Positions 217 to 9,875 of a stretch of DNA of 64,000 nt are shown here, piece by piece (position 1 is the stretch's first letter; each line of letters starts with the position of its first letter). Under the pieces are notes generated by a model that saw only the letters and a list, made by a program, of their open reading frames with translations, did no database searches and was not told the origin of the DNA. Source of the DNA: Enterobacteriaceae endosymbiont of Donacia crassipes (GTDB lineage Bacteria; Pseudomonadota; Gammaproteobacteria; Enterobacterales; Enterobacteriaceae); contig NZ_CP046202.1 of NCBI RefSeq assembly GCF_012569785.1, forward strand, positions 394,440-458,439, read 5' to 3'. Both the position numbers and the translations under genes were made by a program.

Positions 217-1080
217 ATGAAAAAAAAAATAATTTTAATAGATGGAACATTTTGTTTATACCGTGCATATTATGCTTTACCTAATTTAATTAATAGTAAA
301 GGATATCCTACTGGTGCAGTATATGGTTTTATTAATATTTTTAATAAAATTGTAAACATGAATATTAATAGTTATTTTTTAATTATATTTGATACTAAAG
401 GAGAATCTTTTAGAAAAAAGATTTTTAGTAAATATAAATTAACTAGAGTTAATATGCCGAATAATTTAGTTATACAAATTAAACCTTTGTATAAAATTAT
501 ACAGGCTATGGGATATAATATTATATCTATAAAAAATACAGAAGCTGATGATATTATTGGTACTTTATCAATATATGCAGAAAAAAAAAATTATTTAATT
601 TTTATTTTTAGTTTAGATAAAGATATATCTCAATTAGTTACAAAAAATATTAAAATAATAAATCCAATTAATTACTCTATTTCTGGACCACAAGAAATAT
701 ATAATAAATATGGAGTATACCCAAAATTTATTAGTGATTTCTTAGCATTAAGTGGAGATTCTATAGATAATATTCCTGGGGTCCCAGGAATAGGGGCTAA
801 AACAAGTCAAAAATTAATTAATAAACTAGGAAATTTAAAAAATATTTATCATAATATAAAAAAAATTAATAATATTAGTTTTAGAGGAGGAGAAAATATA
901 AAAAAAAAATTAATAAAATATAAAAAATTAGTATTTTTATATCATAAATTAACAACGATTAAAACTAACATTATTCTTGATCAAGAATATTTAAATTTTA
1001 AAACTAAAATTAAACCAAAAAAAAATTATTTAAAATATTTATTTAAATTGTATGAATTTAATAAATTAATTAATAAATAA
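217..1080 (+). CDS. polA: DNA polymerase I reduced to its 5'-3' exonuclease (flap nuclease) domain
   Basis: The 287-residue protein aligns only with the N-terminal 5' nuclease domain of Pol I (the E. coli enzyme has 928 residues). The metal-binding acidic residues are present: D9 (LIDG), D59 (IFD), the E109/D111/D112 cluster (EADD), D134 and D136 (LDKD), and D181 and D184 (GDSIDN). The helix-hairpin-helix GVPGIG follows at 188-193. The gene ends cleanly with TAA, and the 250 bp downstream shows no remains of the proofreading or polymerase domains. By family knowledge it should remove RNA primers and flaps during lagging-strand maturation, leaving gap filling to another polymerase. A similar truncation is known in Buchnera. 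It could also be described as an Xni/ExoIX-like protein, but synteny with dsbA favours polA. Confidence 0.93.
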   Translation: MKKKIILIDGTFCLYRAYYALPNLINSKGYPTGAVYGFINIFNKIVNMNINSYFLIIFDTKGESFRKKIFSKYKLTRVNMPNNLVIQIKPLYKIIQAMGYNIISIKNTEADDIIGTLSIYAEKKNYLIFIFSLDKDISQLVTKNIKIINPINYSISGPQEIYNKYGVYPKFISDFLALSGDSIDNIPGVPGIGAKTSQKLINKLGNLKNIYHNIKKINNISFRGGENIKKKLIKYKKLVFLYHKLTTIKTNIILDQEYLNFKTKIKPKKNYLKYLFKLYEFNKLINK

Positions 1081-4200: not shown

Positions 4201-4947
4201 ATGAAAAATAATATAGAAAAAAAAAAAAATGACAACACTGTTAATAATACAGAATTAGATAAAAATGACAACACTGTTAATAATACAGAATTAGATAAAA
4301 ATGACAACACTGTTAATAATACAGAATTAGATAAAAATGATAACACTGTTAATAATACAGAATTAGATAAAAATGATATAAATAATAGTTTATCTATTAA
4401 TAAACATAAAAAAAAATATACAATTGAATATTTTAAAGAAAAAAATGACATATTAAAAATAAAAATTCTTGAATTACAAAATAAAATTAAAAAGATAAGA
4501 CAAAAAATATTGGATTTAAAATTATATTCCCAATCTGAAATAGAAAATATGAGACGTAGATCAATTTTAGATATAGAAAATGCTTATAAATTTTCTTTAG
4601 AAAAATTTATTTATGAATTATTACCTGTTATAGATAATTTAGAAAGATCTTTAGATTTAAAAATACATAAAGAAGAAAATTCTTTAAAAGTTTCTATAAT
4701 AGAAGGTATTAAATTAACTTTGCAATTATTAATAATATTAATTAAAAAATTTGGTGTAACAATTATAAATGAAATTAATGTACCTTTTAATCCATCTAAA
4801 CATCAAGCAATGTCAATAGTTGAATCAGATAAAATAAAAGAAAATTATATAATAAAAATTTTACAAAAAGGATATTTTCTTCATAAAAGATTATTAAGAC
4901 CTGCAATGGTTATTGTATCTAAAATAAAAGAAAATATAAATAATTAA
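4201..4947 (+). CDS. grpE: GrpE, nucleotide exchange factor of DnaK, with a repeat-expanded N-terminus
   Basis: The protein has 248 residues, about 50 more than E. coli GrpE (197). The C-terminal half is typical: a long coiled-coil helix (near 75-115) containing the SEIENMRRRS segment, then the beta domain ending GYFLHKRLLRPAMVIVSK. GrpE releases ADP from DnaK during protein folding. The extra length is an N-terminal stretch of four tandem 12-residue repeats (NDNTVNNTELDK, residues 10-57), normally a short disordered tail. A run of 13 A (4217-4229) precedes the repeats, so the frame depends on accurate copying of that tract. ATG follows AAGGATAAGAT, a fair ribosome-binding site. A strong hairpin follows the gene. 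DnaK and DnaJ are not in the window. Confidence 0.95.
   Translation: MKNNIEKKKNDNTVNNTELDKNDNTVNNTELDKNDNTVNNTELDKNDNTVNNTELDKNDINNSLSINKHKKKYTIEYFKEKNDILKIKILELQNKIKKIRQKILDLKLYSQSEIENMRRRSILDIENAYKFSLEKFIYELLPVIDNLERSLDLKIHKEENSLKVSIIEGIKLTLQLLIILIKKFGVTIINEINVPFNPSKHQAMSIVESDKIKENYIIKILQKGYFLHKRLLRPAMVIVSKIKENINN
4228..4371 (+). repeat. Four tandem 36-bp repeats inside grpE
   Basis: Four head-to-tail units start at 4228, 4264, 4300 and 4336. Each encodes NDNTVNNTELDK. The first three are identical at the DNA level; the fourth differs by one synonymous base (GAT for GAC). A partial fifth unit (AATGATA) follows. The period is a multiple of three, so gain or loss of a unit keeps the frame. 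Confidence 0.97.
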
Positions 4948-5838: not shown

Positions 5839-7944
5839 ATGAAAATTATTAAAGTTGTAATTAATAATTCTATTATAAATAATAAATTTGATTATTTATT
5901 ACCAAAAAATACTATTATTTCAATTGGATGTAGAGTTTTAATATCGATTAAAAAAAAAAATTATATAGGTATAGTAATAAAAATTACTTCTTCTTCTAAA
6001 AAACCTATAGATAAATTAAAATTTATATCTAAAGTTTTAGATAAAAAATCACTTTTTAATTCTTTAATATTAGATTTTGCAAAAAAAATTTCTCAATATT
6101 ATCAATATCCTATTGGAAGCATCTTATTTCAAATATTACCTATTTTTTTTAGAAAAAAAAATAATTCTTTAGAAGAATTATCAGATACTTTAAAAGTAAA
6201 AAAAAATAATTTTCTAAATAATATTAAAGTTATAAATTATTATAATTTTAAAAAAATTAATTTTACATTTCATAACAAAAAATGTACTTGTTTATATAAA
6301 AATCAATTTAATTCTATTCAAAAAAAAAAAAATAATAGTTTTTATAAAGAAAATATACAAAACATACTAAAAAATTTTGAAGAAAAATATCACAAAAATA
6401 AATTTTTTGTTTGGATTACACAAAATAATATTATTTTTTTAGAAAAAATTAATATATATTTAAATATTATTAAAAAAGTTTTATTACAAAAAAAACAAAT
6501 ACTAATAATAGTTCCTCAATATTATTTTTTTTTTCAATTATATGAATATTTTTTATCTAAATTAGATATACATATCTGTTTATTATATTCAAATTTTACC
6601 AATAAAAAAACATTGCCAATATGGGAAAATATTAAAAACGGGATAATATCTATTATTATAGGTACTAAATTTTCTATTTTTACACAGTTTTTACAATTAG
6701 GATTAATAATCCTAACAGAAGAACATAACTTTATATATAGAAAAACAAATATATATAAATATAATACACGAAATATAGCTATTTTAAGAGCTAAAACAGA
6801 AAATATTCCTATAATATTAAGTTCTAATACATTAAATATAGAAACAATATACAATATAAATATTGGTAAATATAAATTTTTATTTAAAAATAATACAACA
6901 ATTTTATATAAAAATTTTTTTAAATTTTTGATAATAGATAAAAATAAAAAAACATTTAGATCTCAATTATTTTCTAATATTTTAATACAAATGATATTAA
7001 AATGTATTAAAAATAATGAACAAATTATTATTTATAATAAATATATTGGATATTCAATTAATATTTTATGTAATTTTTGTCAAAAAATTTTAAAATGTAT
7101 AGATTGTAATAGTAATTTAATTTTTTATAAAAAACTTTGGAAATTATATTGTTATTGTTGTAAAAAAACTATTAATATGTTTACTATGTGTCCATTTTGT
7201 AAAAAAAATTTTTTTATACCGATAGGTATCGGTACAGAACAATTAATTGAATTATTAAATAATGTTTTTCCAAATATATTAATTTTAAATATTAATAATA
7301 ATAATTTTTTTAAAAAAATTTTACTTATTGATAATAAAAAACCATTAATAATTATTTCATCTCAAATTTTATATAAAGAATATTTTTCTATTTTAAAAAA
7401 TAGTTTAATTATATTTTTTAATATAGATGATATTTTATTTTCTAAAAATTTTAAAGCTACAGAATATTTTATACAGTATATTTTTAATATATTAAATAAT
7501 CATTTAGATAAAAAAAAAAAAACGGTTATTATTCAAACATATTATCCACAAAATAAAATATTTTTAAAAATTTTTAAAGAATATAAAAATTATTATGATA
7601 TAACTAATTTTCTTTTAAAAGAAAGAAAATTAATGTTATTACCTCCTTTTACTAAGCATATTTCTATAGTTTTTGAATCTAAAAATAAAAAAATTTTATT
7701 AAATTTTTTAAATATTTTTAAAAAAAAAGTACAAAAAAAATATATAAATGAAAAAAATTTTATTATTATTGGACCTTTATCATTAAAACAATGTAAAAGA
7801 AAAGGTTTTTTTAGAAAACAATTAATTTTACAACATTTTTCAAAAAAACAATTACAGTTAATTATAAAATATATTTTTTCTATTATAAAAAAAATTGTAT
7901 TTTTTAATAAAATTAAATTTATTATTAATGTTGATCCGATTTAA
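5839..7944 (+). CDS. priA: PriA-like primosomal protein with degraded helicase motifs
   Basis: The full-length 701-residue PriA (E. coli 732) has no stop or frameshift. The N-terminal DNA-binding domain (FDYLLP, GCRVLI, YYQYPIGSILFQILP) and the zinc domain with all eight cysteines (C411, C414, C420, C423, C438, C441, C451, C454, then GIGTEQL) are well conserved, as is the C-terminus (LPPFTKH, NVDPI). The ATPase motifs are not. The P-loop GSGKT aligns with FLEKI (200-204), DEEH reads TEEH (293-296), GSATP reads SSNTL, GTQMLAKGHHF reads SSQILYKEYFS (near 507-517), and the GRAGR motif VI is absent. PriA normally loads DnaB at stalled forks; this copy probably cannot unwind DNA but might still bind forks or partners. 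Two runs of 13 A (6320-6332, 7510-7522) lie within it. Confidence 0.9.
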   Translation: MKIIKVVINNSIINNKFDYLLPKNTIISIGCRVLISIKKKNYIGIVIKITSSSKKPIDKLKFISKVLDKKSLFNSLILDFAKKISQYYQYPIGSILFQILPIFFRKKNNSLEELSDTLKVKKNNFLNNIKVINYYNFKKINFTFHNKKCTCLYKNQFNSIQKKKNNSFYKENIQNILKNFEEKYHKNKFFVWITQNNIIFLEKINIYLNIIKKVLLQKKQILIIVPQYYFFFQLYEYFLSKLDIHICLLYSNFTNKKTLPIWENIKNGIISIIIGTKFSIFTQFLQLGLIILTEEHNFIYRKTNIYKYNTRNIAILRAKTENIPIILSSNTLNIETIYNINIGKYKFLFKNNTTILYKNFFKFLIIDKNKKTFRSQLFSNILIQMILKCIKNNEQIIIYNKYIGYSINILCNFCQKILKCIDCNSNLIFYKKLWKLYCYCCKKTINMFTMCPFCKKNFFIPIGIGTEQLIELLNNVFPNILILNINNNNFFKKILLIDNKKPLIIISSQILYKEYFSILKNSLIIFFNIDDILFSKNFKATEYFIQYIFNILNNHLDKKKKTVIIQTYYPQNKIFLKIFKEYKNYYDITNFLLKERKLMLLPPFTKHISIVFESKNKKILLNFLNIFKKKVQKKYINEKNFIIIGPLSLKQCKRKGFFRKQLILQHFSKKQLQLIIKYIFSIIKKIVFFNKIKFIINVDPI

Positions 7945-7997: not shown

Positions 7998-9875
7998 ATG
8001 TGTGATTTTAATAAATTTGATGTAATAGTAATAGGTGGTGGACATGCAGGTACTGAAGCTGCTTTAGCTAGTGCTAAAATGAAAAAAAAAACTCTTTTAA
8101 TTACAAATAATATAGATACAATTGGACAAATGTCTTGTAATCCAGCAATAGGAGGTGTTGGTAAAAGTCATTTAGTAAAAGAAATAGATGCATTAAATGG
8201 TATTATGGCTACTGCAATTGATTATTCCGGTATTAATTTTAAAATACTTAATTATAGTAAAGGTCCAGCTGTTAGATCTACAAGAGTACAAATAGACAGA
8301 GAATTATATAAAAATCAAATAAAATATTTATTACAAAAAGAAAAAAATTTGTTTATTTTTCAACAAGAAGTAAAAAAAATTATAATTAAAAATTATAAAA
8401 TAACCGGCATTATAACTATGAATAATGATATTATTAATGCAAGAGTTGTAATTTTAACTACTGGTACTTTTTTAAATGGAAAAATTTATATTGGATTAAA
8501 TAATCAATATATAGGAGGAAGAATTAATGATATTTCATCTATTCATTTAGCTAGTTTTTTAAATGAATTACCAATTAATAAAGGAAGATTAAAAACAGGA
8601 ACACCTCCTCGTCTTGATAAAAGAAGTATTAATTTCTCTGAATTAGAAATACAAAATAGTGATAATCCTTTGCCATTTTTTTCTTATATTGGAAATGCAA
8701 AACAACATCCTAAACAATTACCTTGTTATATTACATATACTAATAAAAATACACATCAAATTATATTAGATAATATAATTAAAAGTCCTATATATAGTGG
8801 CTTAATAAAAGCTAAAGGACCTAGATATTGTCCATCTATTGAAGATAAAATTATTAGATTTTCAAATAAAGAAAAACATCAAATTTTTTTAGAACCAGAA
8901 GGTATTATTAATCATGAAATATATCCTAATGGAATTTCTACTAGTTTGCCATTTAAAATACAATTTTTAATTATAAAATCAATTAAAGGTTTAGAAAATG
9001 CATATATTACTAGACCAGGATATGCTGTAGAATATGATTTTTATGATCCTAGAGGGTTGAAACTTACAATGGAAAGTAAATTTATAAAAAGATTATTTTT
9101 TGCAGGACAAATTAATGGAACTACTGGTTATGAAGAAGCTGCAGCACAAGGATTAATAGCTGGATTAAATGCTTCTCTTTTAATAGATGATAAAAAACAA
9201 TGGTATCCATTAAGAAATCAGGCATATATAGGAGTTTTATTAGATGATTTATGTACATTAGGTACAAAAGAACCATATCGTATGTTTACATCAAGAGCAG
9301 AATATAGATTATTATTAAGAGAAAATAATGCTGATATAAGATTAACAGAAATAGGACGTAAATTAGGTTTAGTAGATGATTTTCGTTGGAAGAAATTTAA
9401 TGAAAAATTAGAAAATATTGAACAAGAATATCAAAAAATTAAAAATTTTTCTATTAATTTTAATGATAAACAAAAATTGAAAAAATTTAAATATTTATTA
9501 AAAACATCTAATATAAAAAATATTAATGGTATTAATTTATTAAAACGTTCTGAAATATCTTATAAAGATTTAATAAAATTAAATATATTATCTTTTGATA
9601 AAAATAAAACAGAAATTTTTGAATATATTGAAACACAATTAAAATATCAAGGATATATTAAAAGACAAGAAGAACATATAAAAAAACAAAAAAAAAATGA
9701 AAATATATTTATACCTATAAATATTAAATTTAATAATATTAAAAGTTTATCTCATGAAGCAATAGATAAATTTAATCATTATAAACCTTATACTCTTGGA
9801 CAAGCTTCAAGAATACCTGGAATAACACCAGCAGATATTTCAATACTTATGATTTATTTGTTAAAGAATAAGTAA
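7998..9875 (+). CDS. mnmG: tRNA uridine-5-carboxymethylaminomethyl modification enzyme MnmG (GidA)
   Basis: The 625-residue flavoprotein (E. coli 629) has the FAD-binding GGGHAG at 13-18, [24 protein letters not shown] near 45-68, [16 protein letters not shown] near 200, and the C-terminal domain ending [23 protein letters not shown]. With MnmE (at 43.2-44.6 kb) it installs the cmnm5 group on wobble uridine 34 of several tRNAs; MnmA (38.4 kb) adds 2-thiolation at the same base, so this pathway is represented three times in the window. The usual downstream neighbour rsmG and the atp operon are absent; about 600 bp without genes follows. Confidence 0.97.

Follow-up and report, generated by a model that had tools for sequence, protein, structure and literature searches.

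The window analysed here is a 64,000-nt stretch of the genome of the Enterobacteriaceae endosymbiont of Donacia crassipes (contig NZ_CP046202.1, positions 394,440 to 458,439). Its priA gene encodes a full-length PriA that has lost its catalytic motifs and is retained under purifying selection throughout the genus. With moderate confidence, we propose that this PriA has become a pseudohelicase, which would mark forks or D-loops at which a divergent DciA would load DnaB. The symbiont genome measures 465 kb (two contigs), and the nearest named relatives, at 42–83% identity, are entries called "Enterobacteriaceae endosymbiont" whose hosts are reed beetles of the genera Donacia, Plateumaris and Macroplea. 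The window genome and 23 congeners made up the 24 genomes of the genus that were compared, and family searches for replication partners covered 75 genomes (these 24 and 51 other reduced genomes).

Loss of the catalytic motifs

The priA frame is uninterrupted over 701 codons, as the reading made from the sequence alone (the sequence-only reading) had stated, and corresponds to PriA from end to end. The NCBIfam PriA model NF004065 aligned with residues 1–701 (model positions 1–729 of 731, E 1e-121), with a score of 407.5 bits that lies below the model's own equivalog cut-off of 858; TIGR00595 scored 268.1 bits, above its cut-off of 230.35. PF17764 (3′-DNA-binding domain, 3′BD) and PF18074 (C domain) were matched by hmmscan, and neither of the helicase domains PF00270 and PF00271 was. 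The AlphaFold model has the PriA fold, and its best match was fork-bound E. coli PriA.

Alignment to solved PriA chains and to E. coli PriA confirmed the loss of motifs I, II, III, V and VI that had been read from the sequence, and likewise the retention of all eight zinc cysteines (8/8), GTEQL, LPPF and VDP (Table 1). In Walker A, GVTGSGKTE of E. coli is replaced by NIIFLEKIN, and the motif V alignment extends to SSQILYKEYFS(I). Three marks of an active superfamily 2 PriA helicase are therefore missing from the window protein: Walker A GxGKT, the Asp of DEEH and the motif VI Arg. Judged by its sequence, this PriA has presumably lost both ATP hydrolysis and DNA unwinding.

Motif-specific constraint is lifted in the genus. 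In the 24 genus PriAs, identity to E. coli was 26% over the motif columns, no higher than over the surrounding lobes (30% and 26%); for eight intact PriAs from reduced genomes the motif columns reached 87%, compared with 65% and 70% for the lobes. Since all 24 genus genomes are eroded while in eight other reduced genomes (L064–L071) the motifs stay close to consensus and none of the six catalytic residues is missing, the motif loss is not due to chance.

Selection on priA

The frame was open, motif-eroded and complete in its zinc cysteines (8/8) in 24/24 genus genomes. The ratio of nonsynonymous to synonymous substitution rates (dN/dS, omega) was obtained with a simple pairwise codon model (F3x4) from seven sister pairs picked from the tree, with domain borders set by us. 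Omega was 0.081 in the 3′BD, 0.194 in the winged helix and linker, 0.080 in lobe 1, 0.098 in the zinc region, 0.108 in lobe 2 and 0.096 in the C domain; the control, part of a neighbouring gene that we take to be mnmG, gave 0.036. The earlier claim that PriA is maintained by selection thus holds in every domain, and the helicase lobes are under selection despite their lost catalytic residues. Neutral simulation of priA gave approximately 14 gained stops at 0.05 substitutions per site.

Replication partners

DnaB and RecA were each found in 24/24 genus genomes, and DnaA in 0/24. DnaT, PriC and, over cut-off, PriB were likewise found in 0/24, with positive E. coli controls for all three; absence of PriB and DnaT is what a pseudohelicase of the Deinococcus radiodurans type would lead one to expect. 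Weak PriB matches (26–33 bits) in 23 genus genomes (none in G210) were SSB by length, and the one in the window genome was SSB by sequence too. Among the matches listed, DnaC (PF01695) had none over cut-off in the genus; those listed scored approximately 18–21 bits in frames of approximately 420 and 780–816 amino acids (aa), and are by their length probably ClpX and Lon. Because PriB, DnaT and DnaC were undetectable in 24/24 genomes, the E. coli route through them does not apply as it stands, and loading by PriA, DnaT and DnaC as in E. coli was rejected.

The DNA polymerase I gene of the window (217–1080, + strand) encodes a 5′ nuclease alone (PF02739 and PF01367, 287 aa), and the next listed open reading frame is another gene. 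The polymerase part is missing from this gene; no search for a separate polymerase domain elsewhere was made. GC skew showed no clean switch within the window, to which the search for a replication origin was confined.

A candidate helicase loader

A divergent DciA is the likely helicase loader of the genus, to judge from its profile and position. The gene lies outside the window between what we read as ddlB and secA (the latter by motif), head-to-head with secA on the opposite strand. A genus profile recovered it in 24/24 genomes, with secA adjoining in the 21/21 whose fetched flank reaches secA. Against five confident enterobacterial DciA, hhalign gave 99.7% probability (E 1.1e-25, 156 columns), and the omega of the gene was 0.088. 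All 10 genus members scanned matched PF05258 (DciA; best 8.6e-5). None of the 10 matched NCBIfam DciA, so the gene may be unnamed in public annotation.

The genome search with PF05258 took in 54 of the 75 genomes, of which 18 were over cut-off. Within the genus one match was over cut-off and eight were weak, and the window genome had none at E 0.001. Among the matches listed, PF05258 had none in 12 genomes with both DnaC and DnaT, as predicted by the mutual exclusion of DnaC and DciA described in PMC5109545. Loading of DnaB by PriA alone was dropped after these weak matches and then the recovery of the DciA-like gene by position and profile in 24/24 genomes.

Proposed role of PriA

In the proposed mechanism, PriA would recognise branched DNA, either a stalled fork or a D-loop made by RecA. 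The lagging strand would be held by the zinc region and lobes of PriA, which would keep the junction open to the loader, and the divergent DciA would then put DnaB on lagging-strand single-stranded DNA (ssDNA). We infer for the protein that it binds forks, that it contacts DnaB or DciA and that it lacks ATPase activity. The sequence-only reading had suggested a structural role without unwinding, in which PriA would recruit DnaB at forks. With the motifs gone and selection acting, a role without unwinding is still the best reading; any recruitment of DnaB would have to do without the undetectable E. coli partners. Because DnaA is undetectable, the same PriA route may also serve initiation, most simply at RecA-made D-loops. 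An R-loop route is less likely, since in E. coli this route apparently depends on DNA polymerase I (PMC5333043) and the window polA encodes only the 5′ nuclease.

Some results weigh against this proposal. Constraint on PriA is 2–5 times weaker than on mnmG, so some relaxation is real. The position of E. coli G37, presumably part of the 3′-end pocket, is K or R in 24/24 genus PriAs, and 3′-end recognition may therefore have changed. The DciA-like protein of the window genome reached only 17 bits against PF05258 (E 0.0072), below the cut-off of 24.

A further step, which we put forward as a tentative possibility, is that the dead PriA is itself the replication initiator, because DnaA, DnaC, DnaT, PriB and PriC are all undetectable. 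PriA at RecA-made D-loops together with DciA would be the sole known DnaB route left, every round of replication would be origin-independent, and neither recruiter nor loader would include an ATP-driven step.

It is somewhat unlikely that PriA has instead given up its part in loading DnaB and is retained purely for structure-specific DNA binding, with a task such as shielding stalled forks or the displacement or anchoring of SSB. The retained DNA-binding domains, predicted fold and SSB tail would suit such a role, as would the undetectable PriB, DnaT and DnaC; however, DnaB and DciA are present in 24/24 genomes, and the other recruiters searched for, PriC and DnaA, in 0/24 each. That an unusual pocket still supports some NTPase activity, residual or altered, is very improbable. 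In the window PriA a Lys does align with K230 and motif II retains its EEH, and precomputed PF00270 matches exist for 3/22 reed-beetle-type PriAs (P0003, P0021 and P0022 of P0001–P0022; PF00271 in 0/22). Against this, the K230 column across the 24 genomes reads K (13), N (6), E (3), R (1) and Q (1), the D320 column holds T, I, N, V, D or S, the R584 column is N in 24/24, and both GSGKT glycines and both motif VI Arg are lost from the window PriA. The least credible alternative, also raised by the sequence-only reading, is an early pseudogene whose intact look reflects chance or recent inactivation: constraint below that of mnmG, a linker omega of 0.19 and some reduced genomes of the family without a PriA match over cut-off would fit it, but it is ruled out for the genus by omega values not near 1 in any domain (0.08–0.19, zinc region included), by 24/24 open frames with 8/8 Cys and by the stops expected under neutrality, and the interrupted priA genes L078 and L093 (see below) contain TGA as their only interruption.

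Comparison with known systems

PriA of E. coli is a fork-binding protein whose cysteine-rich region serves as the docking site for PriB, and DnaT is believed to deliver DnaB/DnaC (PMC13377028). ATPase-dead E. coli PriA still assembles primosomes (PMC4504706). The K230R mutant, non-hydrolysing and able to support primosome assembly (PMC4504706), is comparable to the symbiont protein, but it is a laboratory point mutant with PriB, DnaT and DnaC, whereas the symbiont loss is natural and genus-wide, with those partners undetectable.

PriA of D. radiodurans is the tested precedent: it has no ATPase or helicase activity and binds ssDNA, forks and DnaB (Lopper 2015, PMC4504706). As in the reed-beetle symbionts, it is a full PriA with no working Walker A or B; no clear priB or dnaT is present in the D. 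radiodurans genome, and a retained role in replisome loading is proposed (PMC4504706). A 2005 statement that PriA is absent from D. radiodurans (PMC1193525) is contradicted by PMC4504706, where the gene was cloned. The loss published for that lineage concerns motifs I and II (Walker A K to R; 17 phylum members aligned; PMC4504706), whereas the reed-beetle symbionts show erosion of motifs I, II, III, V and VI and have no detectable DnaA either. The window PriA shares with this type the erosion of catalytic motifs under selection. Actinobacterial PriA probably also lacks the helicase motifs. It is described as smaller and very divergent (PMC1193525), and belongs to a different phylum.

The kind of protein is already known. 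In the literature searched, which included few subscription journals, no report of PriA catalytic loss in insect symbionts was found among the matches listed. PMC7289800 makes no mention of priA, the primosome, DNA replication, helicase, pseudogene or DNA repair, and PMC12508126 none of priA, replication, dnaA, dnaB or pseudogenes.

Motif loss in other symbionts

Motifs were counted in 69 rows, leaving out L078 and L093 (TGA-interrupted) and L062 (the same gene as L081). Motif loss was seen in Buchnera-like genomes and others, and 8/8 Cys were found in all 69 rows, motifs present or not. A set of 14 proteins included 12 from named symbionts that had lost one or more of the catalytic motifs (Lightella, four Buchnera, Ecksteinia, two Erwinia haradaeae, Profftia, two Arsenophonus and one Sodalis-like symbiont), the intact PriA of Dasytiphilus and an eroded metagenomic protein labelled Solirubrobacteraceae. 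When six loci were re-read over whole open frames, the motif VI Arg was absent and 8/8 Cys were present in 6/6. Some Buchnera entries bear the UniProt-style name "Probable replication restart protein PriA", in which "Probable" may be the annotators' flag for missing motifs.

Like the genus, these symbionts have lost catalytic motifs, wholly or in part, and retain 8/8 Cys, but the residues left differ in each: two Arsenophonus proteins have GSGKTE without motif VI, and Profftia has GSGKK. Unlike the genus, Buchnera-like genomes keep DnaC, many with DnaT, and a DciA match was listed for 0/12 with both. From the varying remnants and the split between DnaC and DciA we infer at least two independent motif losses among symbionts, and probably more.

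In the reduced genomes G102 (L093) and G116 (L078), priA and dnaB are interrupted by TGA only; in G102, dnaA, recA and ssb are likewise interrupted. Reading TGA as Trp opens priA in both (673 aa in L078, 598 aa in L093), and both proteins are eroded with 8/8 Cys, which suggests TGA-to-Trp recoding in the two genomes.

Gene presence was tabulated by hand, partly from best-match listings, with an "intact" class defined by six residues only, under which L072 (GSDKT, SRRIGR) is still classed as intact. Among the matches listed, PriB was retained in 6/9 intact-PriA genomes and in 1/19 eroded non-genus genomes (Fisher test, P = 0.0014, ignoring kinship; genus and two recoded genomes left out). Outside the genus, the DnaA-less genomes included ten with RecA and open PriA and four with RecA and no PriA, again among the matches listed. 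PMC3620526 describes Moranella as keeping priAB and lacking dnaT and dnaC, and dnaA as missing in many symbionts.

E. coli can live without the PriA motor activity (PMC4504706). Insect symbionts seem to offer repeated natural experiments in which the PriA motor was lost and the remainder kept. Such cases separate the scaffold role of PriA from its motor role, list what must stay, and suggest that PriA and DciA, without DnaA, may form a very small set for loading DnaB.

Other features of the window

Table 1 Coordinates of priA, its domains and motif remnants, and associated genes (positions in the window unless noted; pLDDT, predicted local distance difference test)
Feature	Residues	Position	Strand	Evidence
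priA, 701-aa PriA without catalytic motifs (putative pseudohelicase)	1–701	5839..7944	+	Single open frame, profile match, alignment, model
3′-DNA-binding domain, PF17764	5–101	5851..6141	+	E 7.3e-21; omega 0.081
Winged-helix/linker stretch, low-confidence prediction	109–165	6163..6333	+	pLDDT <50; least constrained domain, omega 0.194
Walker A remnant, FLEKI for GSGKT	200–204	6436..6450	+	Alignment
Motif II remnant, TEEH for DEEH	293–296	6715..6726	+	Alignment
Motif III remnant, SSNTL for GSATP	328–332	6820..6834	+	Alignment
Cysteine-rich zinc region, 8/8 Cys	411–454	7069..7200	+	8/8 Cys in 24/24 genus genomes
Motif V remnant, SSQILYKEYFS for GTQMLAKGHHF	507–517	7357..7389	+	Alignment
Motif VI remnant, NILNNHLD for QVAGRAGR	550–557	7486..7509	+	Both Arg gone in 24/24
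PriA C-terminal domain, PF18074	603–700	7645..7938	+	E 8.1e-11
Presumed mnmG, downstream neighbour (part used as dN/dS control)		7998..9875	+	omega 0.036
Candidate divergent DciA-like helicase loader, 161 aa		G000:C1:142174-142659 (L149:6175-6660), outside window	-	Genus profile, position

A tandem repeat at 4207–4376 of the window (36 bp, 4.7 copies, 95% matches) encodes NNTELDKNDNTV repeats at the N-terminus of GrpE. An amino-acid permease gene (PF13520; 13984–15378, − strand) is retained in this tiny genome.
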